Part shown: positions 36,926 through 54,318 of the stretch, in pieces
Numbering within the stretch: the first letter of the stretch is position 1
Layout of the letters: every line of letters begins with the position of its first letter
DNA from: Lacrimispora celerecrescens
GTDB taxonomy: Bacteria > Bacillota > Clostridia > Lachnospirales > Lachnospiraceae
Direction: 5' to 3'
Length of the DNA: 64,000 nt
Assembly: GCF_000732605.1 (NCBI RefSeq)
Contig: NZ_JPME01000007.1
Location: 1-64,000 of the forward strand
Program-made: the position numbers and the translations under genes
The notes under the pieces: generated by a model
Database searches by the model: none
Told to the model about the DNA's origin: nothing
Seen by the model: only the letters and a program-made list of their open reading frames with translations

Positions 36926-38727
36926 TTCTTGCTTATTTGGTAATTGATTTTTAACACATCGGAGCGTATCCTGGCTTGTAAAACGCCCAGTTACAGTTCT
37001 ATAATACCTTGCTCTTAAGTAATAGGTATTCGTCTCTAAGTCCAGATACTCCCCACAATACCGGAATGAATTCTCATCCTCCTTATCTGGATTTCTCTCA
37101 ATTCCAAAAGCATCGTACTCATACGAGGCTTTACAAGCTCCGTTTTGACTCCATAGCTGAGTTACATCACATGTTCATTCAATATATATAGTAGTATACC
37201 ACACGATCGAATTCTCCGGCAATCAAATTGATTCCTCTTATATAGGTTTTAATCTGTTCACCGTCAGTCTGTTCCGCTACGATATCGCTTCCATCCCAGC
37301 AATGCAATTTCGTTTTCCCCTGGCTTTCGGTCAGCTTCCTCACCTGGGTACTATGGCGCAGGCCATCTCCACGATACTGATATAGAATCTCTTTGTCATC
37401 CTGGTTGATCCGGCTCAGTTGGTTGAACCCATCATAATGTCTCCACTCATAAACGGTCGGAGTTTCCTTTTGATAATGCCCCGATAACTTGACATTTCCC
37501 GGATAGTCTGGTGTTGGCGATGTTTTCTCCCAAATCCGGAAGGTTTCATTTCCATGATCGTCATAACGGTATCGATACGTTTCCGTTGTTTTCCCTTGCT
37601 TTTTTGTCTCCTTTTCCAGCCGGTTGTTCAAACCATAATCATAATTGGTAACACTGACCAATTCATCCTTTGTTCTTCCTTCCACCATCATTTTCACACG
37701 GTTGGAATAGGCATCATAGGAATAAAGTGTCCGCTTCCAGCCGGAATAATCTTCTTCAGTCAGACGACCCAGTCGGTCATATTGATAGGATATGGTAACT
37801 GGGGAAGAATTGTTTTTGTTGATCTTACTTAGAATGTTCCCATCTAGATCATAGCCGTATTCCCATGCGGAAATCATGGATCCCTGCCGTCTATTCTCCA
37901 AAGATATTACTCGGTTGCCATCATTATACTGATAGCTGGTTTCCATACCGGACTGTGGATAGCGGAGGGTTTTACGGTTGCCCTTTTCATCGTATTCGTA
38001 CTCGGCCAGTACCACCCCGACAGCATTGTTTTTTCTTACCTGCTTTAAACGGTATAAATCATCATACGTATAATACAGACTGACAACCGGGCTTGTGGTT
38101 CCTTCCCGGGTCAGTTGAAAGGACTGACAGTTTCCATATTTATCATACGTATAATCCTTCCCTGCATTTCCCGGATCTTCCTGGCGGGACAGCTGGCCTT
38201 TAGGATTGTAGCGGTATTTCGTCTCCAATAAGGCCGTTTGTTTTCCTCCCACGAATTCCCGGCTGACTTCCCGAATCCGCTTGCCATTCTTGCTATAGGC
38301 GTACTCCCGCTCACTGACTGCCATTCCATCATGAGTTCTCTTTTGCACGGTTTCCTTTATCCGGCGTTCCAGGGCATCATGCTGATAAACGGTCTGGTCT
38401 TTGTTTCGGTCCGTTTCTTTCTGCAGTCTTCCGGCTTTGTCGTTCATCCGTCATTGCTGTGACATTTCCAAAGCGGTCATAGGCGTAGTTTGTTACCTCC
38501 CGTCCTTCGCCGGATGGGGTATCCCCGGTTCTCCTTAGAATGACTTGATTCATCCCATCATACCGGCAGATGATCCAGTTGCCCGGGCTTAGGTACTGGT
38601 AGGTATCAGTCAAACGGTTCCTGGCATCATAAACGTACTGATTTTCATGCCAGCCATCTGTTTGTTCCTTCTTTTCCCATATGGTATTACCGGCTCCATC
38701 ATAGTAATAGTTTACTTTCTGGCTGGG
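36926..38727 (-). pseudogene. second Rhs core, truncated and frameshifted
   Basis: This stretch is a diverged copy of the YD-repeat core and Rhs-associated core of the intact gene at 39802-45222, matching its 40.6-42.4 kb part nearly codon for codon. Visible lesions are a net loss of 26 bases near 38440, an extra TA in a TATATATA run near 37185, and a missing G near 37167. A 6-base in-frame loss lies near 38570. The 5' part of the gene is absent and is replaced by IS66 debris. It leads into the orphan tip at 36212-36925. Confidence 0.85.
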
Positions 38728-39295: not shown

Positions 39296-39805
39296 TTATG
39301 GACCATAGTATATTTGTATTTGAGCAACAGTATCGTCAGGCGCTAGGCTGAACACTACCCAAATGCCATTGTCAATAAAACCAATATCATTTTCATTTGC
39401 TAAATCTGAAATACGCCTACATGTTTTATAGGCCTTTTTTATTTCTTTTCTTGTTGAACCAATTCCCAATTTCTGGGTTCCGATCCTATATGATTGATCT
39501 GTAATCTTTACAATATCTATGGTATAGTCGCGACTATAATCTGGTTCCTTAATAAGAACTGTCAAATACTCGTAGCCATCATAGATGAGACTCTTATAGT
39601 ACAGACCACCAGATTCAATCCACGATTCTTCTTTTGGTTGTCCTTTAGTTTCTTTCACTTTGCTAAAATAATAGCCGAAGGTGAGAGACGCCTTTTCAAA
39701 ATAGTTTTTTTCGACTACTTGTTCACTGGAAATCAGTTTAATTATTATTATCACCACCAATAGTGTTATTGCACCGAATATTATAGTATACTTCGCCTTT
39801 ATCAT
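39296..39805 (-). CDS. membrane-anchored putative Rhs immunity protein
   Basis: This 169-aa protein has one N-terminal helix at about residues 6-25 (IIFGAITLLVVIIIIKLI), and the rest is expected outside the membrane. The ATG at 39805 overlaps the rhs stop by four bases (ATGA) and follows GGAGG at 8 bases, so it is translated with the toxin. That position is the classic place for a cognate immunity gene. An extracytoplasmic location would suit protection against a toxin acting at the envelope. I recognise no family. Confidence 0.6.
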   Translation of the reverse strand: MIKAKYTIIFGAITLLVVIIIIKLISSEQVVEKNYFEKASLTFGYYFSKVKETKGQPKEESWIESGGLYYKSLIYDGYEYLTVLIKEPDYSRDYTIDIVKITDQSYRIGTQKLGIGSTRKEIKKAYKTCRRISDLANENDIGFIDNGIWVVFSLAPDDTVAQIQIYYGP

Positions 39806-42800
39806 CCCTGATACCTCCATATGTCATATAAATCTAAAAACCCGGGCATAGATGGCGTACCTACAGGAGTCCAGAGTATTTGACCTTGAGGTGTGCTTGA
39901 TGTTCCAAACTGGTTAACATAGCTGTTAAATGACGATTGGTCATTGGACAAACGTGATGAATAGTTGCCCAGTATTGCTGCGTCAAACCAATTTTTTCCG
40001 AATGCTGTATTACCATCAAATGCATAGGTAGAACCGCTAATATTTTTCCCAGCCATGATGGAAGCAACATTAGTCCCCTCTGGCCCATGAAGGAAATAAT
40101 CAATATTGCCAGCATTGCAAGACATTAAGTTAAGTTGGTTCATTGTTTTTTGATCCAACTTGGAAAGATCACCAATAGTGTTGCCTGCTGAGTTTTTGCC
40201 ATTAATACTGAGAGCATTTGTACTTGAACCATCCTCTAAAATTAGCGCTCTGGCATTTCCGTGTGAATAGATGAATACTTGGTCAATACCGTCACTGTCA
40301 CCTTTCATTCCATTCCAGGCGTCAGCAAAGCTCTTGACATTATTTATTTTCATTATTATAACAGTGTCGCCATTATTCTCAAGCTGTGATTTTTGCCATT
40401 CGGCTTGCTTTGTAAAATTGGACTCTTTTCCAGTCGTATATAAAACATAGCTGACCCAAAGGCCAAGCGGATCAATAAAGCTGACTGGATTATTCATGCA
40501 ATAAGCATAGAGGTTAGAACTTTGTCTTATTGCATGAATATTAGGCATGCGTTTGTTTCCGGGATAATCCCCGTAAATCATATTGTGGGTATTCCAATAG
40601 GTATCCTCTGTAAGGAACCGCCCGCTGTTCGGATTATAGTAACGATTCCGCAAATAATACATCCCACTGCTCAAATCGAAGTACTCCCCACAATACCGGA
40701 ATGGATTCTCATCCTCTTTATCTGGCTTTCTCTCAATTCCAAAAGCGTCATACTCATACGAGGCTTTACATACTCCGTTTTGGCTCCACAGGTAGGTTAC
40801 ATCCCCATGCTCGTTAAATATATAGTAGTATACCACATGATCTATTTCACTGGCAATCAAATTGATTCCTCTTATATGGGTTGTAATCTGTTCACCGTCA
40901 GTCTGTTCTGCTACGATATCGCTTCCATCCCAGCAATACAGATTCGTTTTACCCTGGCTTTGGGTCAGCTTCCTCACATGGATGCTGTGACGCAGGCCAT
41001 CTCCCCGGTACTGGTATATAATCTCGCTGTCATCCTGGTTTATCTGGCTCAATTGGTTAAAGCCATCATAATGTCTCCACTCATAAACCGTCGGATCCTC
41101 CCTTTGATAGGTTCCAGATAGCCGGACGGTTCCCGGATAGTCCGGTGTTGGTGCTGTCTTCTCCAAAATCCGGAAGGTTTCATTCCCATTATCGTCATAG
41201 CGGTACCGGAAGGTTTCGGTCACTTTTCCCTGCTTTTTTGTCTCCTTTTCCAATCGGTTGTTTAAACCGTATTCATAGCTGGTGACACTGACCAGTTCAT
41301 CCTTGGTTCTTCCTTCTACCATCATTTTTATGCGGTTGGAATAGATATCATAGGTATAAAGCGTTCGCTTCCGGCCGAAATAATCTTCTTCAGTCAGACG
41401 GCTCAGCCGGTCATATTGATATGTTATGGTGGCTGGGGCGGAACTGGCTTTGTTGGTCTTGCTTAGGATGTTCCCGTCCACATCATAGCCGTATTCCCAT
41501 GCGGAAATCACGGTTCCCTGCCGTCTGTTCTCCAATGAGATTACCCGGTTGCCATCATTGTATTTGTAGCTGGTTTCCATACCGGACTGGGGATAGCGGA
41601 GGGTTTTGCGGTTGCCTTTTTCATCATATTCGTACTCGGCCAGTATCGCTCCGGCAGCGCTGTTTTTTCTGACCTGCTTTAAACGGTATAGGTCATCATA
41701 GGTATAATACAGACGGATATCCGGATCTGCGGTTCCTTGCCGGGTTAGTTGAAAGGACTGGCGGTTTCCATATCTATCATAAGTATATTCTTTTCTTACA
41801 TTTCCCGGATCTTCCTGGCGGGTCAGATGGCCGTTCGGATCGTAGTGGTACTTCGTCTCCAATAAGACCGTTTGTTTTCCTCCCACGAATTCCCGGCTGA
41901 CTTCCTGGATTCGCTTTCCGTTCTTGCTATAGGCGTACTCCCGCTCGCTGATTACCATTCCATCAGGAGTTCTCTTTTGCACGGTCTCTTTTATCATGCG
42001 TTCCAAGGCATCATGCTGATAAACGGTCTGGTTTTTGTTCCTGTCCGTTTTTTTCTGCAGCCTTCCGGCTTTGTCATACTCATAGTATTCTGTATTGCCG
42101 CGGGCATCCGTCATTGCTGTGACGTTTCCAAAGCGGTCATAGGTGTATTTTGTCACCTCCCGCCCTTGGCCAGATGGGGTATCCCCGGTTCTCCTTAGAA
42201 TAACCTGATTGACTCCATCATACTGACAGGTAGTCTTAATCCAATTGCCAGGGCTTAAGTACTGATAGGTATCAGTCAAACGGTTCCTGGCATCATACAC
42301 ATACTGAGTCTCCTGCCAGCCTTCCTTTTGAGCTTTCTTTTCCCATATGATATTACCGGCTCCATCATAGTAATATTTTACAGTCTGACTGCGGTGATCA
42401 AACGGTGCTATGGTTTTAACCAGACGTCCTGCTTTATCGTATTGAAATTCGGTTTTCTTTCCAGCTTCATCCCATTGGAACCGTTTATTGCCTAACGCAT
42501 CGTATTGAATGCTGGTAATTCTCTCCTGACCGGAGTCTGTCCGTATGGATTTTACTACACGTCCTGCATAATCGTACTCAAATCGTTCTGTTTTTCTATC
42601 ATCAATTTTACTGATATTGTTTCCTACATTGTCATACTCGTAGGTGTAAACCGTTTCTCCGGCTAAAAATTCCTTCCGGACCTGATCTTTCTGGTCTTTA
42701 TAACATTCTGTCACGATATCCGGAGCGGAAGCGTCTCCTATGACTTTTTTTACCTCGCGGTGGTACTTCATCTTACTGCTATCCCACGGATCGGTAAATA

Positions 42801-45222
42801 CCTCATTGTATTCATACGTTTCTTCATAGCCCACCTGGGGAATCCTGCGGGACAGTACCCGACCAAAAGAATCATAAGTATAACGTTCAGTTTTTCTTAT
42901 ATTATCCGGTGCTGTGCCGTTCCCATCATATGTGACTGCTTCTGTAAGCTCTCCCCATGAATTATACTGGAAATCCTGGAGCACCACATCTCCAGTGGCC
43001 GGTTCCTTGGATTCGGCCAGGCATACCTGCTGAATCTGTCCAAAGGGTGTGTATTGAATTCGCTTTTTCTGGTGGTTTCCATCTATTGTCGTGATATAGT
43101 TTAAGCTGTCATTATAATTGGTTTCATTTACCGTCTGCGAGCCGTCTACCGGAGGAAGCGTCTCTTTTGCAATCCGTCCCAGCTGATCATAGAGATAGAT
43201 AGTTACCTGATTCCTGGAATCTTTTTTGTAAATGAGCCGTCCCCAATTGTCATATTGGAACTCTTCCTTGATTTGATCGCAGAGCTTGCCGTCTGCATCT
43301 CGAATGTCGGTCTGTTCTTTTGATATAGCGTTATGTGTATATCTGCTGGAAGTACTGGATGGAGAGCTGTATTTATAAATGGTTTCCGCATATACACCTG
43401 ACTGTTCCAGGTTCCCGCTATCTGTCAGGAAATATCTTTTTTCGTTGGTCACGCAATAGGGATTGGCATTATCCCCATAATCATATTCCGTCTTTTCTTT
43501 TAAGACTCCATTTTCAAATACTCGATGATATTTTATGACCCTATTTCCCAATTTTGTATGGAGTTCATTGGTCTCCTTAATCTTGTCAGGGCCTTTTTCT
43601 CTTACTGTTTCAAGAATGATGCTGTAGTCTCCATAGATTGTATTAATTTCCTGATTACTGGAAGGGTCATCCGTATAGGTTTCCTTAAACTTAATGACAT
43701 TTGCTTTTTGATCGGAGGAATAGGTCCAATTGGTTTCCTTTTTCAGAAATTTTGATTGATCGTTTCTGTCAAATACCTGGTCAATGGCTCTTATCATTAG
43801 TTTATTGCTATATGTATAATCGCTCTTTGAAATAAGGTTATCATGATCCTTAACCTCTTTTATATCTAGCAGCCCATCACTATAGAACTTATGGGTTTCG
43901 TGAATGTTCTGGTGATTTGTTACTTTTGCATATTCGATATACTTGCCATTGCTGGCGGATCCAGAATCAAGCGTATAGTCATATACTCCCTGGTTGTATT
44001 CGGCTCCGTCAACAATATCTTTTTTCATTGTCAATGCAAAATGGTCAATATATCCACCAGTACTATTATTAATGCTAATTTTCCTGTCATAGGTAAACTG
44101 TGTGGATGCATGATTGGGGTATGTGACGCTCTTTAGCAGCAGATACTCGCGTTTTTGCGTTTCGGGGTTGTTTCCTACTACTCCAGAGGAGGCACATTTC
44201 ATATAACCCGGGGAAGTTTCGTAGTTATACTCGGTCAAGCTGCCTACAGGGTCTATTACTTCGGTGAGTGTTTGAGTACCTTGCCTTTTTATATGGTAGG
44301 CAATTTCGCATGCCTCTCCTTTCGGACTTTTCGGTAAATCCCAGACAAATCCGTCATTGGTTCTATTCAGTGTGATTGTACGCCCCCAGGTGTCCACAAT
44401 CTCCATACCTTGGGAGCCCCTAAGATTATAAAGAATGGTATTTCCAAACCTATCCTGGCGGGCGACCAGCTTAAAATCTACTGGGCCCATATTCCGGTCA
44501 CCATCACCTGTATTAGAATTAAAATAATCCCTGTTTCCATTCTTGTATTTAATTATGAGATGATAAGGTTTTGGAGGATCAGCCTTATAAGGGTGCCGAA
44601 TCTCACCTGACTTGGTATCAATTTCCACATCTTTTAAATTATAATTTTCAAATACGTCGAAATCCCGGTTCATTCTTAAACTTTTTCCATCTTCAAGATG
44701 TAGAATATAATCATAACTGCGAGTTGTTGTTAATTGGGGCCACCAAGTCCAACCAAAATTCTGCACAGTCTCAATGGACGGCAGAACAAAGGACCATCCG
44801 TGTCCCAATCCATAGGTTGAGGTATAAAATGTGTTATCTATAGAACCTGTTCTTACACCTGAACTGAGGACATGTGGAGCCATATCCACTAAATTTGCAC
44901 AGCCGGAATCATAGCGTCTGGCTATTGATACATCAAAGCCATCCCTGCCGGGCAGTACAAAATCGGTTGTATCATATTGGACATTGCCGGTGTTTAACTG
45001 GACATCAATATGATTTGTTTCAAAGTAGTTAAATGGGGATTCCGGATACTGTTTTGTTTCGATAAATTCATACTCCGAAGATAGTGCCGCTCGGCTCAAC
45101 TGTATTTTCGGGCTTTGTTCTTCCCTTTCTTCTACGTCTGATAGGTCCTCAACCGTATTTGTATCAGGCGCATCCCATTCATTTTTATTCATATTATCCT
45201 CTATAATTTTTTTATCGTCCAT
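39802..45222 (-). CDS. Rhs/YD-repeat polymorphic toxin with caspase-like C-terminal tip
   Basis: This 1806-aa protein has no signal peptide. An N-terminal region (about 60-330: NHIDVQLNTGNVQYDTTDFVLPG, GHGWSF) resembles the Rhs/DUF6531 entry domain. Dozens of YD repeats follow (about 430-1480, YDxxGRL.. units), then the Rhs-associated core (EYDAFGIERKPDKEDENPFRYCGEYFD...YYLRNRYYNPNSGRFLTEDTY) and the NPVSFIDPLGLW boundary near residue 1589. The 218-residue tip carries FIYSHGNA (His near 1653) and NLMSCNAG (Cys near 1700), the His-Cys dyad pattern of clan CD/caspase-like peptidases. A contact-dependent protease toxin is the best inference. The immunity gene overlaps its stop. Confidence 0.88.
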   Translation of the reverse strand: MDDKKIIEDNMNKNEWDAPDTNTVEDLSDVEEREEQSPKIQLSRAALSSEYEFIETKQYPESPFNYFETNHIDVQLNTGNVQYDTTDFVLPGRDGFDVSIARRYDSGCANLVDMAPHVLSSGVRTGSIDNTFYTSTYGLGHGWSFVLPSIETVQNFGWTWWPQLTTTRSYDYILHLEDGKSLRMNRDFDVFENYNLKDVEIDTKSGEIRHPYKADPPKPYHLIIKYKNGNRDYFNSNTGDGDRNMGPVDFKLVARQDRFGNTILYNLRGSQGMEIVDTWGRTITLNRTNDGFVWDLPKSPKGEACEIAYHIKRQGTQTLTEVIDPVGSLTEYNYETSPGYMKCASSGVVGNNPETQKREYLLLKSVTYPNHASTQFTYDRKISINNSTGGYIDHFALTMKKDIVDGAEYNQGVYDYTLDSGSASNGKYIEYAKVTNHQNIHETHKFYSDGLLDIKEVKDHDNLISKSDYTYSNKLMIRAIDQVFDRNDQSKFLKKETNWTYSSDQKANVIKFKETYTDDPSSNQEINTIYGDYSIILETVREKGPDKIKETNELHTKLGNRVIKYHRVFENGVLKEKTEYDYGDNANPYCVTNEKRYFLTDSGNLEQSGVYAETIYKYSSPSSTSSRYTHNAISKEQTDIRDADGKLCDQIKEEFQYDNWGRLIYKKDSRNQVTIYLYDQLGRIAKETLPPVDGSQTVNETNYNDSLNYITTIDGNHQKKRIQYTPFGQIQQVCLAESKEPATGDVVLQDFQYNSWGELTEAVTYDGNGTAPDNIRKTERYTYDSFGRVLSRRIPQVGYEETYEYNEVFTDPWDSSKMKYHREVKKVIGDASAPDIVTECYKDQKDQVRKEFLAGETVYTYEYDNVGNNISKIDDRKTERFEYDYAGRVVKSIRTDSGQERITSIQYDALGNKRFQWDEAGKKTEFQYDKAGRLVKTIAPFDHRSQTVKYYYDGAGNIIWEKKAQKEGWQETQYVYDARNRLTDTYQYLSPGNWIKTTCQYDGVNQVILRRTGDTPSGQGREVTKYTYDRFGNVTAMTDARGNTEYYEYDKAGRLQKKTDRNKNQTVYQHDALERMIKETVQKRTPDGMVISEREYAYSKNGKRIQEVSREFVGGKQTVLLETKYHYDPNGHLTRQEDPGNVRKEYTYDRYGNRQSFQLTRQGTADPDIRLYYTYDDLYRLKQVRKNSAAGAILAEYEYDEKGNRKTLRYPQSGMETSYKYNDGNRVISLENRRQGTVISAWEYGYDVDGNILSKTNKASSAPATITYQYDRLSRLTEEDYFGRKRTLYTYDIYSNRIKMMVEGRTKDELVSVTSYEYGLNNRLEKETKKQGKVTETFRYRYDDNGNETFRILEKTAPTPDYPGTVRLSGTYQREDPTVYEWRHYDGFNQLSQINQDDSEIIYQYRGDGLRHSIHVRKLTQSQGKTNLYCWDGSDIVAEQTDGEQITTHIRGINLIASEIDHVVYYYIFNEHGDVTYLWSQNGVCKASYEYDAFGIERKPDKEDENPFRYCGEYFDLSSGMYYLRNRYYNPNSGRFLTEDTYWNTHNMIYGDYPGNKRMPNIHAIRQSSNLYAYCMNNPVSFIDPLGLWVSYVLYTTGKESNFTKQAEWQKSQLENNGDTVIIMKINNVKSFADAWNGMKGDSDGIDQVFIYSHGNARALILEDGSSTNALSINGKNSAGNTIGDLSKLDQKTMNQLNLMSCNAGNIDYFLHGPEGTNVASIMAGKNISGSTYAFDGNTAFGKNWFDAAILGNYSSRLSNDQSSFNSYVNQFGTSSTPQGQILWTPVGTPSMPGFLDLYDIWRYQG

Positions 45223-45238
45223 CTATTCCCTTCTTATC

Positions 45239-46294
45239 TTAAAATAATGATACTGCTGCGCTTCCGGTTCCCTTGGCGATAAATTCTACCAATGCAATGG
45301 AACCGCTAAAGCATTCATTCTGACTTAACTGTCTGGTTGATTGAAACCACAGCTTTCCCGGAATACTGGAATATATTCTTAAATTTTCTTCCGGATAATT
45401 TCCTGGTACTGTTATGCTTTTTAGGCTGCCAGCTGTGAGGTTTGTTAATTCTAATAAGTACGGATTATATCGAAGGTTCATGCGGATCTTATCCAGACCG
45501 CTGACCTCATGGGCTTTTAGCAGTACTACGTAACGATTGCCCGTCTTTACCGGGTATTCCATGGTGCTGTTGCGATAAAATATAGGTATAATCGGCAATT
45601 GTGCTGTTGTCAAATAATCAGATTCATCACTTTTAGAATCATATGCTTTGATTCGGTACATAGCGTTGGACGCCCCAATTGGGATGGAATCTGTCATTCC
45701 CCGGTGTTCCTCTATATGTTTCTGTGTATCCAATTCATGGAAGGTCAATCCTTTGCCTTCCCATTCGTTAAATGTCAGCCATCTGGAGTCAATACTCTCC
45801 CACGAGATGCCAGGAAGCGTCACCTTTTCCCCTTCATCCCATGAATGTCCGTAATTTTCCAGGCTGCTCCAGGTTTTATTAAGTTCGTCCAGTTCCAGCC
45901 AGGTACACCCCCGCTCAATGCCAGGACGTTCATCGCCGGAGCCTTTAAATATTTCAAAGCTTATTTCCCGGCTTTCTAACTGCTGCCAGGTATGCGAATG
46001 ATTCTCAAACTGTGACCAGCTTAACTGCTCATAATCCAGGCGTTCCCAGTACTGTCCTTTGCCAGTTCTGGTTTCGATTTGATGCCAGTTAAGGGCTTCC
46101 TGATCATACCTGCTCCATGGTTCATTGGTACTGCCGAAGTTGTCCCAGGTGTATCCAGACAGAGCCTGTAAAAAAGATTCATTAAATACCCGTTCTACAA
46201 TATAATTTTTATCCGCTTCCACCGCTCCCCAGCTGATTTTTGCGTGTTCTCCCTCGTAGAGGGTAGGGATATGTAAACATTCTGGTCGGTTCAT
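45239..46294 (-). CDS. tryptophan-rich repeat protein with cohesin-like C-terminal domain
   Basis: This 351-aa protein precedes rhs by 16 bases. Residues about 45-195 contain at least ten short units with a tryptophan and a following hydrophobic-acidic pair (WDNFG, WHQIE, WERLD, WSQFE, WQQLE, WLELD, WSSLE, WESID, FHELD). A fibronectin-like segment (ASNAMYRIKAYDSKSDES) follows, and the C-terminus (VSGLDKIRMNLRYNPYLLELTNL...ALVEFIAKGTGSAAVSL) matches the cohesin/dockerin-binding fold. The start follows GGAGGAACC, somewhat distant. It may help display or deliver the Rhs protein; no function is proven. Confidence 0.65.
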   Translation of the reverse strand: MNRPECLHIPTLYEGEHAKISWGAVEADKNYIVERVFNESFLQALSGYTWDNFGSTNEPWSRYDQEALNWHQIETRTGKGQYWERLDYEQLSWSQFENHSHTWQQLESREISFEIFKGSGDERPGIERGCTWLELDELNKTWSSLENYGHSWDEGEKVTLPGISWESIDSRWLTFNEWEGKGLTFHELDTQKHIEEHRGMTDSIPIGASNAMYRIKAYDSKSDESDYLTTAQLPIIPIFYRNSTMEYPVKTGNRYVVLLKAHEVSGLDKIRMNLRYNPYLLELTNLTAGSLKSITVPGNYPEENLRIYSSIPGKLWFQSTRQLSQNECFSGSIALVEFIAKGTGSAAVSLF

Positions 46295-46343
46295 AAATAA
46301 TAGGTTCCTCCTTTCATTTTCTATTGGTAATTTTAGTTTTTAT

Positions 46344-46372
46344 TTCATAATATATTTGGAGTTTTCTGTCAG
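46344..46372 (-). promoter_or_regulatory. possible promoter of the Rhs operon
   Basis: On the minus strand CTGACA (46367-46372) and TATGAA (46344-46349) are 17 bases apart, upstream of the 46294 start. The -10 box is weak. Confidence 0.4.
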
Positions 46373-46543
46373 GTACTCCTCAACTGCATCCCGTCGTGAT
46401 TATGAGCTTTCCCGTATCAGTATCATGAGGTTTTTTGCTATATTTCTTTTTTTGCCAATGGTCAACTTTATGATAGAAAAAATCATTTATTATTCTGATA
46501 CTCATCCTTACATATTGTAGGGAAGAAGGAGTATCTGTTCTAT

Positions 46544-46804
46544 TTGACTCAAGTAAATAGTGATTTGAGTAACACTCTGATGCTTAGAGGCTATGCGTCA
46601 GGAGACGCTAATAATTATACGCAAACAGGTATTTATCAGATCATATCATCGGAAGGGGCGACTATGCTGAATATTGGCTTCAAAGGTCCCTGTGTTTTTT
46701 TGGTATATGCAACATCTAACTATGTAGCCCAGGAGCAGATTTATTTTGAAGGATCGCTTAAAAGGTTCAGGAACAACGCTGGAGAATGGTCGGCATGGAA
46801 ATGA
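46544..46804 (+). CDS. silent tail-fibre C-terminal cassette A (pyocin-knob-like)
   Basis: The frame is 86 codons from a TTG at 46544, but no ribosome binding site suits it, so it reads as a headless cassette. It begins TQVNSDLSNTLMLRGYA and ends FRNNAGEWSAWK, which matches the pyocin-knob domain at the tip of phage tail fibres. Its last base abuts the last base of cassette B on the other strand. The AAATAGTGAT motif near its start (46555) matches the junction in the expressed fibre gene. Confidence 0.7.
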   Translation: MTQVNSDLSNTLMLRGYASGDANNYTQTGIYQIISSEGATMLNIGFKGPCVFLVYATSNYVAQEQIYFEGSLKRFRNNAGEWSAWK

Positions 46805-47029
46805 TCATTTCGTCCACATAGTGGCCCAGGCACCATTAATACTCCTTCCAAACACCAGAGGGCCATCATCGTATAGTTCGATCTGATAAAACGATGTCTC
46901 CGATAGAGTGAACCTTATATAAATCCTATTGCTTGTGCGGCCAATTGTTACATCGGTTATTTGAACTAAGCTACCAGTAACCTTTTTGTTTAATTCGCTT
47001 TTTTCGGCTTTCAATGTTAAATCACTATA
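46805..47029 (-). CDS. silent tail-fibre C-terminal cassette B
   Basis: Open from TAT at 47029 (YSDLTLKAEKSELNKK) to the stop at 46805, this 74-codon frame has two stops directly before it and no start site. The body (VQITDVTIGRTSNRIYIRF...FGRSINGAWATMWTK) looks like a fibre-tip beta domain. It lies tail-to-tail with cassette A. Its 5' edge, 47015-47034, is a 20-bp exact inverted copy of the edge of cassette C. A short open frame just upstream (KAGNGAIWKYERWLNN) may be the end of a lost cassette. Confidence 0.65.
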   Translation of the reverse strand, partial: YSDLTLKAEKSELNKKVTGSLVQITDVTIGRTSNRIYIRFTLSETSFYQIELYDDGPLVFGRSINGAWATMWTK

Positions 47030-47034
47030 TTATT
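47015..47034 (-). repeat. recombination-site-like repeat at cassette B
   Basis: On the minus strand AATAATATAGTGATTTAACA is identical to the plus-strand sequence at 48226-48245. The two inverted copies flank the recombinase gene. Confidence 0.7.
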
Positions 47035-47146
47035 AAGCCATCTCTCATATTTCCATATTGCTCCATTCCCAGCTTTTGTTTAGTAAAAGGGTAAACTTAA
47101 TAAAGCACCCGTTTCCAGCTACTTAAAATCAATCCATTTCAGCTAT

Positions 47147-48166
47147 TTATGCAAACTTCCGGTGAGACTCTTTCACATTTTCCTCCTGGACCGTGCAGTA
47201 GATCATTGTCGTATCCAGTTTTTCATGTCCCAAAAGTTTCGACACCTGCTCCACCGGCATTCCTCTATTCAGCAGATCAGTAGCTATGGTCCTCCGGAAA
47301 CGATGCGGATGGACCTTCTTCACACCTGCACGCCGCCCAAGTTGCCTAAACATGTATTGGATTCCGGCAACAGTTAGGCGAGCATGAGGCTGATCTAGTG
47401 TTGCAAATAAAGGCTTATTTACCAATTCTTCCTCGGTTATTCCCTCCTCCTTCATGCGCTCTTTAAGGTATCTCTTTAAGTAAAACCTAGCATTATCCGT
47501 CAAATACACCTTTCTTTCCTTACTTCCCTTACCAAATACAATCAACTCCTGCCGACCCATTTCTATATCACAAACATTCAGTAACGCCAACTCTGACACC
47601 CTGACACCTGTACTGTACAAAAACTCCATTAAGGCTCGGTCCCTCAGTACCGTACAATTAACCCTAAGTGCTTCCATTTCTTCCTGGGAAAACGGCTTTT
47701 TGATGGTCTTGGCCAGCTTCAGGATCCCTACCCGTTTAACCGGGTTACTGGTCACAAGCTCCTCTGTAGTGAGGAAATCCCAGAAGCTAGATAAATAATG
47801 CAGCCTTGTCTGCATGGTGGTCATTTTGATGCCGTGCTGCTCCCTCATGACTCCATAATAATATCTGAGATCCATGGCGGTAATGTCCTCAATCCGTTTC
47901 CCCAGGAAATCCAGCATCTTGCAGATCTCCGTTGTATATTGCTTTAAGGTATTTTCCTGACGGTTAACTGCCTTTTTGCTTGCTACGAACATCTTGACCT
48001 TTAAGACGTCGCCGTCAATGCCCGTTTCTGCTACCTCGTAACATTCTTCCCTTACTTCCACGCCGTGAAAATTAATATACAGTGCATTATGCAACTGCTC
48101 CAGCTGTCCACTATCCAGGTATGGTTGCATAGTATTGATCACTTTTTCCAAAATCTGCTCTATCAT
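47147..48166 (-). CDS. tyrosine recombinase, probable shufflon invertase
   Basis: This 339-aa phage-integrase-family protein has a SAM-like core-binding domain (about 75-165) and a catalytic domain with Arg in STGVRVSELALL, the H-x-x-R pair in HPHRFRR, His in LLGHEKLDTTMIY and the nucleophile Tyr in that last motif. It starts at 48166 behind GGAGGG at 9 bases. It lies between two pairs of oppositely oriented fibre cassettes that share short repeats at their edges, so site-specific inversion of those cassettes is its likely job, as for Rci in plasmid shufflons. Confidence 0.88.
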   Translation of the reverse strand: MIEQILEKVINTMQPYLDSGQLEQLHNALYINFHGVEVREECYEVAETGIDGDVLKVKMFVASKKAVNRQENTLKQYTTEICKMLDFLGKRIEDITAMDLRYYYGVMREQHGIKMTTMQTRLHYLSSFWDFLTTEELVTSNPVKRVGILKLAKTIKKPFSQEEMEALRVNCTVLRDRALMEFLYSTGVRVSELALLNVCDIEMGRQELIVFGKGSKERKVYLTDNARFYLKRYLKERMKEEGITEEELVNKPLFATLDQPHARLTVAGIQYMFRQLGRRAGVKKVHPHRFRRTIATDLLNRGMPVEQVSKLLGHEKLDTTMIYCTVQEENVKESHRKFA

Positions 48167-48225
48167 TTGTTAAAGCCCTCCTTCCACATTATTGTAAAAT
48201 ATAGAGCCATTTTGGTCCACTACTC

Positions 48226-48245
48226 AATAATATAGTGATTTAACA
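48226..48245 (+). repeat. recombination-site-like repeat at cassette C
   Basis: AATAATATAGTGATTTAACA is the inverted partner of 47015-47034. The inner ATAGTGAT is also found at cassettes A (46555-46566) and D (48825-48836, minus strand). Confidence 0.7.
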
Positions 48246-48563
48246 AAGAATAAATTAGCATTTACCCCCGGCAGTGATACAACTTTGGTTTTTAATAATA
48301 CATCCGAAGAGGACGGTAGGCTGTACATTGATTTAAGCTTAAAAACACTTACCGCTCATGTTCCCAATACTGCATACTATTTTGGAAAATTGGCACGGGG
48401 TCCAGAAAGGGTTAAAACAGTATTTGCACGAACATACGGCAATTACCTAATGAGTGGCTGGATTGATGGTAGCGGTTACATTTATTTGCATAACCGAACA
48501 AATGAGACTATCCCCACGGGGGAAGTTTTTGAATTAATGTGCGTAGTGCCTCTTTCACGATAA
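48231..48563 (+). CDS. silent tail-fibre C-terminal cassette C
   Basis: Open from TAT at 48231 (YSDLTKNKLAFTPGSD) to the stop at 48563, 110 codons with no start site at the 5' edge. The body (RLYIDLSLKTLTAHVPNTAYYFGKLARG...TGEVFELMCVVPLSR) is a beta-rich domain with no family that I recognise. It is tail-to-tail with the expressed fibre gene, 8 bases apart. Inversion between its edge and the site in the fibre gene would attach it to the fixed N-terminus. Confidence 0.68.
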   Translation, partial: YSDLTKNKLAFTPGSDTTLVFNNTSEEDGRLYIDLSLKTLTAHVPNTAYYFGKLARGPERVKTVFARTYGNYLMSGWIDGSGYIYLHNRTNETIPTGEVFELMCVVPLSR

Positions 48564-48571
48564 AGCGATCT

Positions 48572-48952
48572 TTAGTTTAATTGGACGGATTTCCAGCCAG
48601 TCGGTATACCTGCGTTTGTCGAATGAAGAAAAATTCTTGTGTCACCTCTTGGAACAGCAAGAACTACTTGCCAGAAGCTATAGTCGCCGGTCACCAAAGC
48701 TATACCTTCAGATGAAAGGGTAAGACCAGCTTTATAAGGAGTGTTATAAGTGTTGCCATTCCAAGCCAAAACTGCCCCAAATGGTTGAGGTACCATTAAA
48801 TCACTGGTATAACGTCCATTACCAATATCACTATTTAATTTAGTTATCTTCTCATTAATGATAACATTATCATTGATAAAATCTTGTCTCACCGGCTTAT
48901 CCGATGCTTCCCACATATTTAATCCTAATGATGTTTTATTTGTACTTGACAT
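48572..48952 (-). CDS. tail-fibre-like protein, currently expressed arrangement (cassette D)
   Basis: This 126-aa protein starts at ATG 48952 behind GGAGAAATAAT. The first 38 residues (TSLGLNMWEASDKPVRQDF, then NDNVIINEKITK) match the conserved N-terminus of small clostridial phage tail-fibre proteins. The remaining part, from LNSDIGNGRYTSD on, is the variable tip ending GIPTGWKSVQLN. The AAATAGTGAT junction lies at 48836-48827. It is driven by a consensus promoter flanked by two SOS boxes. No other tail, capsid or lysis gene is present, so what particle it serves is unknown. Confidence 0.72.
   Translation of the reverse strand: MSSTNKTSLGLNMWEASDKPVRQDFINDNVIINEKITKLNSDIGNGRYTSDLMVPQPFGAVLAWNGNTYNTPYKAGLTLSSEGIALVTGDYSFWQVVLAVPRGDTRIFLHSTNAGIPTGWKSVQLN
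48825..48836 (-). repeat. recombination-site-like repeat inside the fibre gene
   Basis: On the minus strand AAATAGTGATAT encodes the LNSD boundary between fixed and variable parts. It aligns with AAATAGTGATTT at cassette A in inverted orientation. Confidence 0.6.
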
Positions 48953-49057
48953 ATTATTTCTCCTCTTTTAATTTGAATTTTGCTTGAAATTTCTTCTGAT
49001 CATTTAACTGTTACATACATATTGCCAAGAAATAATCTCTGTTTCATATTATTTTTT

Positions 49058-49137
49058 CGAACATATGTTCTATTGTCGACAACTAGATTATAATACTCTA
49101 AAATCCTGTTGTCAATACTCATTCGAACATATGTTCT
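49058..49137 (-). promoter_or_regulatory. SOS-controlled promoter of the tail-fibre gene (two LexA boxes)
   Basis: CGAACATATGTTCT occurs at 49058-49071 and again at 49124-49137, both fitting the Gram-positive LexA box CGAAC-n4-GTTCG with one terminal change. Between them on the minus strand are TTGACA (49110-49115) and TATAAT (49087-49092) with a 17-base spacer. LexA on either or both sites would block this promoter. The rest of 48953-49346 shows no gene; the 67-codon frame here only overlaps these sites. Confidence 0.85.
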
Positions 49138-49346
49138 CTTTTTTATAGAACAAAAGTTAATCTTCCCACTCATCCAGACAAAATAAAATGCATAAACATA
49201 CACTAAAAGCCCCAGTTTTTATACTCTCAGGGACCTTTTGTGTATGCCTATGCATAGTTTTTAATAACAAATCAATAATAAAAACGAATCCTAACTAAAG
49301 AAAGAAAAGAACATCCCAAATTCAAACCATTACACCAACCCTCTTT

Positions 49347-51464
49347 TCACCGCCCTCCTGAAATATAAGAATTCAATATAGCTTTGTCCTTTCTCACCAC
49401 ATATCCACTCCCTCCCCGATCCTTCACATCCTCTGTCATACTAACAAGAAGAATAGGAGTCTCCAAATTTGGATCCGTTGTAAAGACAGCAAACCAGCCG
49501 AGCTCCGTACCGGTTCTGTCGTCTTTTGATGCTTTAATTTCAGCCGTTCCCGTCTTTCCCGCAAACTCTATATCATTCCGGTAAGCCGCGTGCCCGGTCC
49601 CGTGTTCGGAACTGATCACTTTGCCGAGAGCAGTCTGTATCCTATCTGCAATCTCCGAGGAACATGCCCCTGGCAGCCAGACTTCCGACTTTGGCTCCTC
49701 TTTATACTGCAGATACGGTTTCATGACGTTTCCCTGATTGGCAAACATGGTATAAAGCGAGGCTAAGTGTATGGGATTAACTAACATCTGACCCTGCCCG
49801 TAACCACTGTCCGCCAGCTGAACCTCAGTTTCGATCCGTTCTGTATTGGAGTATTGAGACTTTGTTACAGATATATCAAAAGGAATCTCCTGATTAAATC
49901 CCAATTTATCCAGGCCAGACATGAAATCATCATAGCCGATTTTTAAGGCAGCCTTTGCAAAATAAATGTTATCCGAATAAATAAATGCGTTTTCCAATAT
50001 AACAGGGCTGTAATCATGAAGGGTAGTGACATAGTAATTCCCCCAGCTTTCATCCTTTCTCCAGCTTAACCCTTCCCCTCCAAAATCCTCGTTAGGGTCA
50101 ATCGCTCCGGTAGAAAGTCCGATGGCACCAGTTATTGGCTTAAAAGAAGATCCCGGGGCAAACCTCTGGCGGAACCGGTTGAACATGGGTTTTCTCTCAT
50201 CATCATTTAAAGAAGCCCATTTCTCCTCAGACATTCCAAGGATAAAATCATTGTCATCGTAGGATGGCGTACTGACAAGAGCCAGTACTTCTCCGGTATA
50301 AGGATTCATGGCGACCGTACAGCTCTTATCCTCTTTGAAGGTTTGATAAATCTCATCCTGAAGGGTGCTGTCAATGGTAAGGGTTATATCCTTTCCATCT
50401 ACCCTCGGCTTTGCAGCCAGGGTTTTCTTAACGGTTCCGTAGGAGTCAGTAATGGTAATGGTCCGTCCATTGGTTCCTTTCAGTTCCTTCTCAAATAAGG
50501 CCTCCATCCCACTCCTTCCAATCACACTGTCCGAAAGATAATCCTCACCCGAATGCTTTTCAAGATCCTCTGCCGTCACATTCTGGACATATCCCACCAG
50601 ATGGGCTCCACTCTCTCCCAACGGGTAATAGCGTACTTCCGTGTCTGTGATCAGGACTCCCGGAACCGCCAGTAGTTCATCCTGGAATTCTTTATTTTTA
50701 ACATTATCCTCCCGGGGCTCCATGGAATTCAAATTAAGCTCATCTACTTTCTTAATGGTTTTTAGAGGTACAAAAGAATCTTCTTTCACCCACTTGGCTG
50801 ACAGTTTCTTCCCGATTGCATCCGCAGATATTCCAAGAAGGTTCCCAAGAGTCTCCAGATCTCCGGCAGAATCCTCACTCATTTTTCCGGGAACCAGTCC
50901 TACGGAGGAAGCAGTGCCTTTTCCAGCAAGAAGCAGCCCATTCCTGTCAAAAACACTTCCTCTTTTTGCCTTGTCCGTTGATACTCTCACCTTATCGGAA
51001 CGGCCAAGCTCCGGAAAGATCACACTGTCGTCCCACACCATCTGATAGCCTTTTTTCTTTTCCTTTCGGAACTTTACCTGATTGCTGAAGTTTATTTCTC
51101 CGGCAATACTGCCAAGGCTCATATTGTAGCTGACTACTGCTTCCCCGTCTTTTTCTGCTACCTGCCCGATCTGGGCGGTTATTCCGGAAGCCTCAATTCC
51201 CTCGTAGATATTTTTATGCCTGGTGATAAAATCCTCTTCACTGATATTTAGATGGCTCTGCTCATCTAACATCCTATACATATCCGTATAGTCTGCCTTA
51301 GAAAGGCATTCCACGTATTCCAGGAACAACGCATCCGGCGTTTTCCTTGATGCTCCGATTTTCCCCTGAATTCGAAAGAACAGAGCCGCCCCTGCTAAAC
51401 CAGCCAGTAATATAAAAAGCGTACAAACAGTACTGAATAAAAATCTCCTTTTTCTACGTCTCAT
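49347..51464 (-). CDS. class B penicillin-binding protein, MecA/PBP3-like
   Basis: This 705-aa peptidoglycan transpeptidase has an N-terminal membrane anchor (about 8-30) and an NTF2-like MecA_N domain (about 40-150). A dimerisation domain (RGSVFDRNGLLLAGKG) and a transpeptidase domain follow, with S-S-F-K near 438, S-D-N near 494 and K-T-G near 636. The MecA_N plus PBP layout is that of PBP2a-type, often low-affinity enzymes. It lies 13 bases after the preceding PBP gene with AGGAGG before the ATG. A BlaI-type operator at the operon promoter suggests induction by beta-lactams. Confidence 0.9.
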   Translation of the reverse strand: MRRRKRRFLFSTVCTLFILLAGLAGAALFFRIQGKIGASRKTPDALFLEYVECLSKADYTDMYRMLDEQSHLNISEEDFITRHKNIYEGIEASGITAQIGQVAEKDGEAVVSYNMSLGSIAGEINFSNQVKFRKEKKKGYQMVWDDSVIFPELGRSDKVRVSTDKAKRGSVFDRNGLLLAGKGTASSVGLVPGKMSEDSAGDLETLGNLLGISADAIGKKLSAKWVKEDSFVPLKTIKKVDELNLNSMEPREDNVKNKEFQDELLAVPGVLITDTEVRYYPLGESGAHLVGYVQNVTAEDLEKHSGEDYLSDSVIGRSGMEALFEKELKGTNGRTITITDSYGTVKKTLAAKPRVDGKDITLTIDSTLQDEIYQTFKEDKSCTVAMNPYTGEVLALVSTPSYDDNDFILGMSEEKWASLNDDERKPMFNRFRQRFAPGSSFKPITGAIGLSTGAIDPNEDFGGEGLSWRKDESWGNYYVTTLHDYSPVILENAFIYSDNIYFAKAALKIGYDDFMSGLDKLGFNQEIPFDISVTKSQYSNTERIETEVQLADSGYGQGQMLVNPIHLASLYTMFANQGNVMKPYLQYKEEPKSEVWLPGACSSEIADRIQTALGKVISSEHGTGHAAYRNDIEFAGKTGTAEIKASKDDRTGTELGWFAVFTTDPNLETPILLVSMTEDVKDRGGSGYVVRKDKAILNSYISGGR

Positions 51465-51477
51465 AGCTTACCTCCTG

Positions 51478-54318
51478 TTAATCTGTTCGCAGATTATTGG
51501 AAACGCCGGAAGCGGTCCCGGTAAGAATATTAGCAGGATCTTCCAGATGAAAGTAATAATTGAATATCTCTTTTCCTACCCCGACCACATTGCCGGAACT
51601 GTAGCCATTGGCGACCCTCACAGTTACGGCTATCTGTGGGTCTTCAAATGGGGCATATCCTATGAAAAGTCCGTGGTTTGGCCGGGTCTTGGATTCCTCT
51701 GCTGTTCCGGTCTTTCCGGCAGCATTCACTTTCAAGTCTTTTAAGGTTGCATTGGTTTTTACCAGCTCATTCATACCCTTAGCCACATCATTCCATATAT
51801 AGTCCGGAATTGAAACATTGGACTGAAGCACAGGCTTAAAAGACTGAATCATATTGCCATCTGAATCTGTCACTTTATCAATCATGGAAAGATCATAGCT
51901 ATTCCCATGGTTGGCCAGTGTCGAAGTATACCGTGCAATCTGTGTCGTCGTATAGTTATGGGTTCCCTGTCCGATGGAAGAAGGTATGGCAAACCGGTCC
52001 GTAACATGTGGTTCCGCTTCTCCGATTTCAATGCCTGTCTTTTTATCCAGGTCCATCAAACCTGCATATTCTCTAAGCTTATCTAATCCCTTTTCTTCCG
52101 AAAACACCCCATCCTCTCCCGTTCCCAGCCGGTATGTAATTTCGGACAGATAGACATTGCAGGAATTTTTCAAGGCATCGGCACTGGAGAGAATCGGACC
52201 GTGTCCTGACCGTTTCCAACAGCGCAGAGGAGGCTGTACCTTATCAAATACGCCGGTGCATACGATACTGGTATCTGTACTGATAGCTCCTTCATTTAGT
52301 CCTGCAATTACCGTTATCGGTTTAAAGGTGGATCCTGGAGCCGTCAGCTGGCTGGTGGCCCGGTTAAACAGGGGAAGGGATAAATCTGCTGCAAGCTTCT
52401 GATAGTAATCCGTATCCATCTGATTTGCCAGCCGGTTGTTATCATAGCCCGGGTAGCTTACACAGGCCAGCACCTGTCCGTCCTTGGGGCTAACCACTAC
52501 AGCCGATCCGGAACAGGGGTTTAATGCAAGCTGGGCCGGGGTGATCTCCAGATTTTTTATTTTCTTACGGATAAACTGCCAGGCATTCAGCTGCCCATTG
52601 GAAAGAAGGGCATAATCCGGATCCTCTTTTGATAGGATTCCCTGCTCATAAAGGAGTTTTTCCACATCCTCCCCAGATAACGTACCTTCTGTTAACATTG
52701 TCTGAAATATCAGTAAATCAAAACCGGAATCTTTCTTTAAACTGTTGAGGATCATTTCTTCCGTCAGGCGTCTGCTGTTTTCAAGCGTCATATATTTTTC
52801 AGTGGAATCCACCTGGTTTAAATCAATCCAGCCATTTGCAATGCATTCGGAAAGATACTGGCGGAAGCTTTTTTCCTCCCGGTCCCAGTCTCCGCTTTTA
52901 TCGGAAAGAATCTTCTTCTTTCTTACCGTATCCAGAAGATAATCATAATAGCCTTTCACTTCACTGCTTAAGGAGTCATACCCGGAGCCAGAAACATCAA
53001 AGGAATCAGAAAACTCCCTAAAGACCTGCTCTTTCTTATTCATAAACCTTTCATAGACAGCTTTCTCCAGATCCGTTGCATCCGCTTCCTGTAACCGTCC
53101 GGTATCAATGACATGATTCTTTATTAATGCAAAATACACTTCATCCGATGAAATCCGGATCTGGGAGGCATCGGATGCTTTTGGCATATCCGCCCTTTTG
53201 CTCTCTGACATATTGGCAAGGAGAATACCGGCAATTTGCTGTTCCAGCATCTGATAAACTGCATTCTGCAAATCCATGTCAATGGTTAAGTAAATATCGT
53301 TTCCACTTTTGGGCTCACTGGTAATTTCCGGGTCCGATTTCCGGTTTCCAACGACATCCGTATAAAACTGTTCCATACCATCCTGGCCCCGAAGCCGGTC
53401 TTCCATGGACTTCTCAATTCCGCCTTTTCCTAAGGTGGACTGGTTCGTGTAGACGGTACCTTCCCGATTCCCTGCTTCCAGTTCATCGGCAGAAATTGGT
53501 CCGGTATACCCTAATATGGAAGAAAGGCTATCTCCTCCATAGTAAACGCGGATGCTGCCCTCCTGGATATCCGCCCCCGGCAGACTGCGTTTCTTTTCCA
53601 ACACCGCCACCATCGTTTCCTCAGACACATCCGAGGCGACCAGATATGGAAGATATTTGCGGTATGAATTTAAGGAAAGGCCGTAACGAATGTTTGCTAT
53701 CTGCAAAATCTCCTTAGGGGTAAGGGTATGAGGCAGTCCGTATTGATCCTGTTCCTCTTCAGTATAAGTATTCTCAATCAGGTACTTTTCCCTGCTGCAA
53801 ATTTTTTTCATGAGTTCTTCGGCTGTTCCGGCTTTTTGTTCTTCCGTTAATTCATCTACCGTACTCTTCCCATAAAAATCAGCTTTGAAACGGCTAAGCT
53901 TCCACCCATCTTCTGTAAACTCATAGTTTCCCTGTTCGTCCACAGATATCGGCAAAATGGTATTCAGTTTGTTTTCGTCCTGAACCAGGCGGATTAACTG
54001 ATAGGCAATCCCATTCAAGGACCGCTGACGTTCTTTGTTGGACCTGTAATTCTGAGAATCTTCCAAGGTAATATCATAGGAAAGCCGGTTAGAAGCCAGT
54101 AAGTTTCCATTCCTGTCATAGATATTTCCGCGGCTTCCGGCAAGTCTCTGGGTCTTCATAATGGAACTCATAAACTCTTCCTGATTTGCAGCCCCCTCCA
54201 GGATCTGAAGACGGTACAACCGTGTAATAAGCACCAGAAACAGAAATCCGAAAAAAACACCCAGGATCGCCAGTCTTGGAATCCGGTCCTCCTTTTTCCA
54301 TAATTTATGATTAAGCAA
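51478..54318 (-). CDS. class B penicillin-binding protein 2 (MrdA-like) with large insertion
   Basis: This 946-aa transpeptidase has a membrane anchor at about 15-36 and a dimerisation domain (GSRGNIYDRNGNLLASNRLS). The catalytic domain has S-T-F-K near 661, S-C-N near 719 and K-T-G near 868. Between the two lies an extra region of about 240 residues (about 365-600), so it is longer than the usual 600-700 aa; related clostridial PBP2 proteins also carry insertions here. The start is TTG at 54318 with AAAGGAG 7 bases upstream. It is the first gene of the two-PBP operon. Confidence 0.88.
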   Translation of the reverse strand: MLNHKLWKKEDRIPRLAILGVFFGFLFLVLITRLYRLQILEGAANQEEFMSSIMKTQRLAGSRGNIYDRNGNLLASNRLSYDITLEDSQNYRSNKERQRSLNGIAYQLIRLVQDENKLNTILPISVDEQGNYEFTEDGWKLSRFKADFYGKSTVDELTEEQKAGTAEELMKKICSREKYLIENTYTEEEQDQYGLPHTLTPKEILQIANIRYGLSLNSYRKYLPYLVASDVSEETMVAVLEKKRSLPGADIQEGSIRVYYGGDSLSSILGYTGPISADELEAGNREGTVYTNQSTLGKGGIEKSMEDRLRGQDGMEQFYTDVVGNRKSDPEITSEPKSGNDIYLTIDMDLQNAVYQMLEQQIAGILLANMSESKRADMPKASDASQIRISSDEVYFALIKNHVIDTGRLQEADATDLEKAVYERFMNKKEQVFREFSDSFDVSGSGYDSLSSEVKGYYDYLLDTVRKKKILSDKSGDWDREEKSFRQYLSECIANGWIDLNQVDSTEKYMTLENSRRLTEEMILNSLKKDSGFDLLIFQTMLTEGTLSGEDVEKLLYEQGILSKEDPDYALLSNGQLNAWQFIRKKIKNLEITPAQLALNPCSGSAVVVSPKDGQVLACVSYPGYDNNRLANQMDTDYYQKLAADLSLPLFNRATSQLTAPGSTFKPITVIAGLNEGAISTDTSIVCTGVFDKVQPPLRCWKRSGHGPILSSADALKNSCNVYLSEITYRLGTGEDGVFSEEKGLDKLREYAGLMDLDKKTGIEIGEAEPHVTDRFAIPSSIGQGTHNYTTTQIARYTSTLANHGNSYDLSMIDKVTDSDGNMIQSFKPVLQSNVSIPDYIWNDVAKGMNELVKTNATLKDLKVNAAGKTGTAEESKTRPNHGLFIGYAPFEDPQIAVTVRVANGYSSGNVVGVGKEIFNYYFHLEDPANILTGTASGVSNNLRTD

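Follow-up and report, generated by a model that had tools for sequence, protein, structure and literature searches.

What purpose does a set of interchangeable fibre tips serve when it lies beside an Rhs gene rather than in a phage tail module, and where did its switch come from? The question is raised by a locus in a 64-kb stretch of DNA from Lacrimispora celerecrescens (contig NZ_JPME01000007.1, positions 1 to 64,000), here called the window. An earlier, sequence-only reading of it had proposed four invertible tip cassettes around a tyrosine recombinase, forming an orphan switch of a receptor-binding protein.

Anatomy of the tip shufflon

The four-cassette tip shufflon with its enclosed tyrosine recombinase is real and spans positions 46547-48844 of the window (Table 1). 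The core ATAGTGAT is found at 46557 (+), 47021 (-), 48232 (+) and 48827 (-). The longer site pattern ACTNAATNATATAGTGATTTA, with up to three mismatches allowed, has exactly four matches in the 64 kb, and these are the four shufflon sites; 100 shuffles gave a mean of 0.04 matches and none of them reached four. The sites and cassettes run in the order + - recombinase + -, with two sites on either side of the recombinase gene. Several inverted copies of one short site head alternative C-terminal segments and a site-specific recombinase is linked to them, as in known shufflons; segments in differing orientation, the further mark of such systems, are seen in relatives of the same recombinase family.

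Table 1. Features of the locus in window coordinates. Tip lengths are counted from the S-D codons of the core.
Feature	Position	Strand	Basis or remark
Recombination site 1	46547..46567	+	core and pattern scan
Recombination site 2	47018..47038	-	core and pattern scan
Recombination site 3	48222..48242	+	core and pattern scan
Recombination site 4 (expression site)	48824..48844	-	core and pattern scan
Tip cassette A, silent or poorly expressed, 81 aa	46559..46804	+	without stop before site
Tip cassette B, silent, 73 aa	46805..47026	-	TAA TAA before site
Tip cassette C, silent, 109 aa	48234..48563	+	TAA directly before site
Tip cassette D, expressed, 86 aa	48572..48832	-	fused to fixed N-terminus
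Fixed fibre N-terminus, 42 aa	48827..48952	-	N-terminus conserved among fibres
Palindrome AAATGATCATTT, overlapping stop codons of A and B	46799..46810		A/B meeting point
Tyrosine recombinase, 339 aa	47147..48166	-	Pfam Phage_integrase 5e-37
p351, 351 aa, second conserved gene	45239..46294	-	adjacency conservation
Rhs protein, 1806 aa, third conserved gene	39802..45222	-	RHS_repeat 9e-41, Rhs_assc_core 9e-20
Gene behind Rhs, 174 aa, candidate for immunity judged by position only	39296..39820	-
LexA-type box GAACATATGTTC, distal	49125..49136		12-mer match
LexA-type box GAACATATGTTC, proximal	49059..49070		12-mer match
Sigma-A type promoter TTGACA-17-TATAAT, between both boxes, 5' of fibre gene	49087..49115	-

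Re-reading of the sequence bore out the earlier description of the cassettes. Tip D is the only one joined to the fixed start (MSSTNKT...KLNSD; whole fibre 126 aa), tips A, B and C are headless, and cassettes B and C have a common 20-base run, AATAATATAGTGATTTAACA, in inverted orientation (arms 28 nt, 89%). In slots 2 and 3 the site is immediately preceded by an in-frame TAA; slot 1 lacks an in-frame stop there and has a TTG start candidate at 46544. Such a stop is present in 19 of the 21 silent slots of seven cellular loci, the two exceptions being slot 1 of the window and slot 1 of the related genome G006. When sites are compared, the bases 5' of the core are constant for each position and the bases 3' of it move with the cassette, which places the crossover within the core and the products in frame. 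The invariance of the core in the 36-site table reflects the fact that the sites had been picked by it.

The first ~38 residues of the fibres (n=14) are nearly invariant and the remainder is hypervariable. None of the four tips has a phage match, and A, C and D have no match in 115 other genomes. A structure model of the fibre had a mean pLDDT of 49, which is too poor for use.

The recombinase is expected to act on all four sites. Inversion between sites 3 and 4 would swap tips C and D at the fixed N-terminus, and inversion between sites 1 and 4, alone or after inversion between 1 and 2, would bring A or B to it, so that with the inversions 1x2, 3x4, 1x4 and 2x3 any of the four tips could be expressed. 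Crossover inside the 8-bp core would keep every product in frame, and stop codons or the lack of a good start would keep the remaining slots silent.

Inversion and cassette change in relatives

The four-cassette layout occurs also at six other cellular loci and on two phage contigs. In a Blast comparison of the window with the same locus in genomes G006, G011, G013 and G057, alignment resumes exactly at core 4. It spans site 2 to site 3 in G006, G011 and G013. At site 1 G006 alone aligns as far as the core; the alignment stops ~100 bases short of this in G011 and G013 and 190 bases short in G057. One cassette order fixed in all relatives had been named by the sequence-only reading as an observation that would speak against a switch; the cassettes were found to differ between the species compared, and the inversion which that reading proposed is seen in two relatives, at the C/D pair in G013 and at the A/B pair in G070.

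G013 has a second, prophage-borne shufflon (core ATGCTGAT, recombinase 94% identical), which is present at both ends of its single contig (loci L027/L028). Over 8.9 kb these ends are 99.8% identical, as in an untrimmed circular assembly, and probably represent an overlap rather than a duplication. Between them the flanks and the recombinase are collinear, the C/D pair is inverted and the expressed tip is changed. The flanks have 19 gap openings in 8,870 bases and the left pair of L027 against the right pair of L028 has 23 in 697, an excess that would be explained by mixed reads. In G070, two prophage loci, which are paralogues in one genome and not members of one population, hold the same A/B pair in inverted orientation at 98.8% identity, with the position-specific arms unchanged.

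Cassettes of one locus may also resemble each other. When up to 300 bases per slot were scored against simple letter shuffles, likeness was found in two of six slot pairs at the Rhs locus of G006 (z 12 and 58), two of six in G011 (z 51 and 59) and five of six in G013 (z 4.8-11); z did not exceed 2.6 in the window, in G057 or at either G070 locus. We read the likeness within G006, G011 and G013 as exchange between pairs or as mixed reads. In the assemblies of G006 and G013 the Rhs-locus cassettes are broken, which may be due to (long-read) error or to decay.

The recombinase gene points the same way as the fixed fibre gene at nine distinct loci and the opposite way at one, L077. Inversions 1x4 and 2x3 may therefore be rare, and the orientation in L077 indicates that inner or whole inversion occurs too. 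Co-direction among loci of the group with recombinases at 74% identity or more is a bias if these two inversions are free.

Thirteen loci of the genus have the fibre but no recombinase. In six of them (L050, L052, L055, L056, L058 and L062) the fibre gene is followed by a single spare tip in inverted orientation, which shares its reading frame with an inverted site at an N-S-N/D boundary. In L051 the inverted sites are present and the spare tip is open, though in a different frame; L053 and the twin loci L059 and L060 look degraded, and L054, L057 and L061 show no spare tip. In each of the eight loci tested, the sequence past the distal site shows homology to the site 1 flank. L050 shares the ATAGTGAT core, and in the p351 tree it clusters with the window, G006, G011 and G013 (86/85). 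Loss of A, B and the recombinase through a 1x3 deletion would give this grouping, which is absent from the Rhs tree. The two-tip form is thus possibly a deletion product of the four-cassette form. Of the 25 genus genomes scanned for a recombinase that could act on two-tip loci in trans, 11 gave profile matches reaching 1e-30, with close ones only in four-cassette genomes.

The palindrome at which A and B meet, AAATGATCATTT, occurs as a 12-mer at two places in the genome (control 0). The hexamer TGATCA, mostly as AAATGATCATTT, lies near the middle of 13 of 14 pairs from seven loci, the exception being C/D of the window, and in pairs with two open tips it lies on or next to the stops. Elsewhere it is found mid-pair in three of four pairs of L027/L028 (largely one pair) and in three of seven two-tip loci; none of five IMG/VR pairs, two L040 pairs or eight hsdS-type pairs has it. 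The palindrome may be a joint for new pairings of cassettes, or it may serve as a binding site. L050 expresses a tip similar to tip C of G057 (58% over 90 residues), paired with a different partner.

The fibre-p351-Rhs gene set and its promoter

The description of the switch as an orphan does not hold. The fixed fibre heads a conserved fibre-p351-Rhs set with an SOS-type promoter; the shufflon itself stands as first read, and it was this operon context that had been missed, together with the LexA-type boxes and the palindrome. The fixed 42-aa N-terminus is present in 16 of 25 genomes of the genus, L. celerecrescens included (17 copies), and also in G057. It is followed by p351 at 18 of 18 loci and then by the Rhs core at 16, the other two loci ending within p351 at contig ends. 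The surroundings differ, with no further gene common to all in the stretches compared (16 of the 18 loci).

p351 has a weak cohesin match in its C-terminal part (E 0.09) and no match in phages or plasmids; its structure model (mean pLDDT 38) is too poor for use. Six of 392 genomes of an order-wide sample match it, five of the genus, the present one included, and one weakly. Named records with p351 come from Lacrimispora amygdalina, L. algidixylanolytica, [Clostridium] aerotolerans, Clostridium sp. and MAGs.

The Rhs protein has RHS repeats and an Rhs core followed by a variable C-terminal tip, the organization of Rhs polymorphic toxins. Its tip (residues 1601-1806) has no family match, and nothing in the 31 loci fetched, including 15 with an Rhs core, matches it at 1e-6; the same is true of the 174-aa gene behind it, as would be expected of polymorphic tips. 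The Rhs and p351 trees are not congruent. Five proteins searched gave no defence-family match, and no secretion or release gene linked to the set was found.

The 12-mer GAACATATGTTC of the two LexA-type boxes has only these two copies in the 5.03-Mb genome (control pattern, one). The promoter between them is the only 12/12 match among nine promoter-like ones, with 9.5 expected by chance at the loose threshold. GAACN4GTTC is found within 500 bp upstream of the fibre gene at 17 of 18 loci, L050 being the one without it, and the upstream region of lexA has one exact copy and three near-matches. The box agrees with the B. subtilis and Clostridium LexA box forms (PMC4234289). The extended box AGAACN4GTTCG has six places in the genome against five for a control pattern. 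Two are at the fibre promoter, one starts 28 bp before the recA start, and the others are at the 5' end of a radical-SAM DNA-repair gene, before an 84-aa ORF and inside a gene. Since the extended box is no commoner than the control, the case for SOS control rests on the placement of the boxes and not on their number: a LexA-type box lies at the promoter and is shared with SOS genes of the genome. From its sequence, the fibre-p351-Rhs operon looks DNA-damage-inducible. Damage would lift LexA repression and fibre, p351 and Rhs would be made together, perhaps with the recombinase, which has the same direction as the fibre gene.

Origin of the switch and competing explanations

The recombinase matches the XerA, XerC and XerD models below their cut-offs. 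Relatives at 1e-60 or better are present in 15 of 145 genomes, its own included, and six have a copy at 74% identity or more. Single-sequence queries of genome contigs and viral contigs found no relative; a profile search of the viral contigs found nine loci, five of them at 63-76% identity. Among the latter, which are all on IMG/VR contigs, L076 and L077 have four cores and the full + - recombinase + - layout, L078 has three cores, and L075 and L079 have none. Genes for baseplate J and a Gp48-like protein lie near the fibre in L076 and in L030, as does baseplate J in L077, and weaker tblastn matches support tail genes near the fibre of L027.

Rhs-locus recombinases fall in two places of the tree, among phage and prophage ones: those of the window, G006, G011 and G013 beside the G013 prophage recombinase, and that of G057 beside the G070 loci. 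A single clade for all of them is rejected (AU test, p 3.5e-6) in a test that omitted eight of 20 recombinase rows, seven distant and the partial L079, and that was made with the tree already known. The split argues for at least two captures, or for transfers back to phages. The phage kinship of the Rhs-locus recombinase is, at the level of sequence, established.

The phage and prophage shufflons L076, L077, L027/L028, L029 and L030 share with the window a recombinase at 72-94% identity, the + - recombinase + - layout, the site arms and an in-frame S-D or A-D boundary. They differ in that their fibre lies in a tail module (with baseplate J in L030, L076 and L077), whereas the window fibre heads an Rhs set; tblastn of the window with eight queries from relatives gave no baseplate, Gp48, tape-measure or holin match.

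Inversion systems of hsdS genes with tyrosine recombinases are known; their cassettes differ from those of the window in being Type I restriction specificity domains. Of ten loci with a ~40% identical recombinase, five have four sites as + - recombinase + -, four do not, and L033 has one more site copy. The cassette tested, of L034, is Methylase_S. By eye, the cassettes of L032, L033, L035 and L037 resemble the hsdS type of L034, and in L032, L034, L035 and L037 these hsdS-like cassettes come with the four-site layout. L040 has fibre-type tips.

The shufflon of plasmid R64 inverts several segments encoding C-terminal adhesin parts at the pilus tip, using the Rci recombinase. Min, Gin and Cin are serine recombinases that invert C-terminal fibre parts. 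Like the window, they and R64 vary the C-terminal end of an adhesin or fibre by inverting one or several segments. In the Rin shufflon of bifidobacterial prophages, a tyrosine recombinase, XerD-like and without an arm domain, switches a phage receptor-binding protein between alternative C-termini by inversion at short sites common to them, and a second inverted locus without an adjoining recombinase is also reported (PMC6109161). The window resembles Rin in the recombinase type, XerD-like without arm domain, and in the inversion of C-terminal tips at short sites. Rin, however, has tandem variable genes beside the recombinase, in a phage, whereas in the window two tail-to-tail pairs flank it in an Rhs set without phage genes. 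In C. difficile, RecV is needed for some but not all switches (PMC5903667).

Taken together, the locus is probably an SOS-induced Rhs weapon with a switchable targeting fibre, whose switch was captured from phages. Adjacency, the shared promoter and the hypervariable tips suggest the fibre as the targeting part of the Rhs product, its tip being the variable receptor-binding part. This explanation implies that the switch would be active in this strain, that the operon would respond to SOS induction, that fibre and Rhs would be physically linked, and that the product would be released and would kill. Tailocins and bacteriocins are under SOS-type control, and Rhs polymorphic toxins have an Rhs core with a variable tip; the window has both traits and differs in that no tail-particle genes were found in it. 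A broader proposal can be put forward only tentatively, namely that such loci form a class of tail-less bacterial weapons, in which a fibre-p351-Rhs complex is released upon SOS induction, the phage targeting switch was captured at least twice, recombinase-less two-tip derivatives arose by deletion between direct sites, and cassette pairs are re-assembled at the conserved central palindrome.

Among the other explanations, the one that survives best, unlikely as it is, would have fibre and Rhs loaded after SOS induction onto the tails of a resident prophage or tailocin, so that the shuffled tip would retarget a particle encoded elsewhere. The phage-style fibre, the SOS-type promoter and the lack of tail genes at nine Rhs-type loci, the window and relatives (baseplate queries, tblastn), agree with such loading, but 50,697 phage records contain no match to the fixed N-terminus, and in the G013 prophage the fibre begins with a different N-terminus. 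It is improbable that the switch is locked in this strain, with the recombinase silent or the sites worn and only tip D in use: no inversion was seen at the window's own locus, but the recombinase frame is open and the protein near-identical to its relatives, all four cores are intact, and slots share content in three same-locus relatives. That the fibre and shufflon are the remnant of a lost phage, with the Rhs neighbourhood a coincidence, would account for the phage-type recombinase and cassette layout and was already disfavoured; it is hardly credible given that all 18 loci keep the fibre N-terminus together with p351 while their surroundings vary, that the recombinase is 98.5-99% conserved in four species and that the boxes are conserved.

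If the locus is a weapon with a switchable fibre, a phage host-range switch would be operating in a non-phage setting, in combination with an Rhs protein under SOS control, and it would become possible to test how an Rhs system of a Gram-positive bacterium, for which no delivery route is obvious, is targeted. One recombinase family with a four-site layout serves tail fibres, restriction specificity and this Rhs operon, so site rules may carry over between them. Open-licence papers searched by title or abstract start yielded no Rhs operon coupled to a shuffled fibre, which is weak evidence that such an operon is absent from the literature.

Two further observations concern the surroundings of the set. 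A displaced Rhs fragment at 37179-38447 of the window contains RHS repeats and shows homology to the end of the Rhs core, as in orphan toxin-tip modules. Positions 44000-52000 gave no Rfam match. Between site 1 and p351, at ~46490-46540, there is a stem-loop of the type GATACTC...GAGTATC, which is present in many loci and is a possible RNA element.
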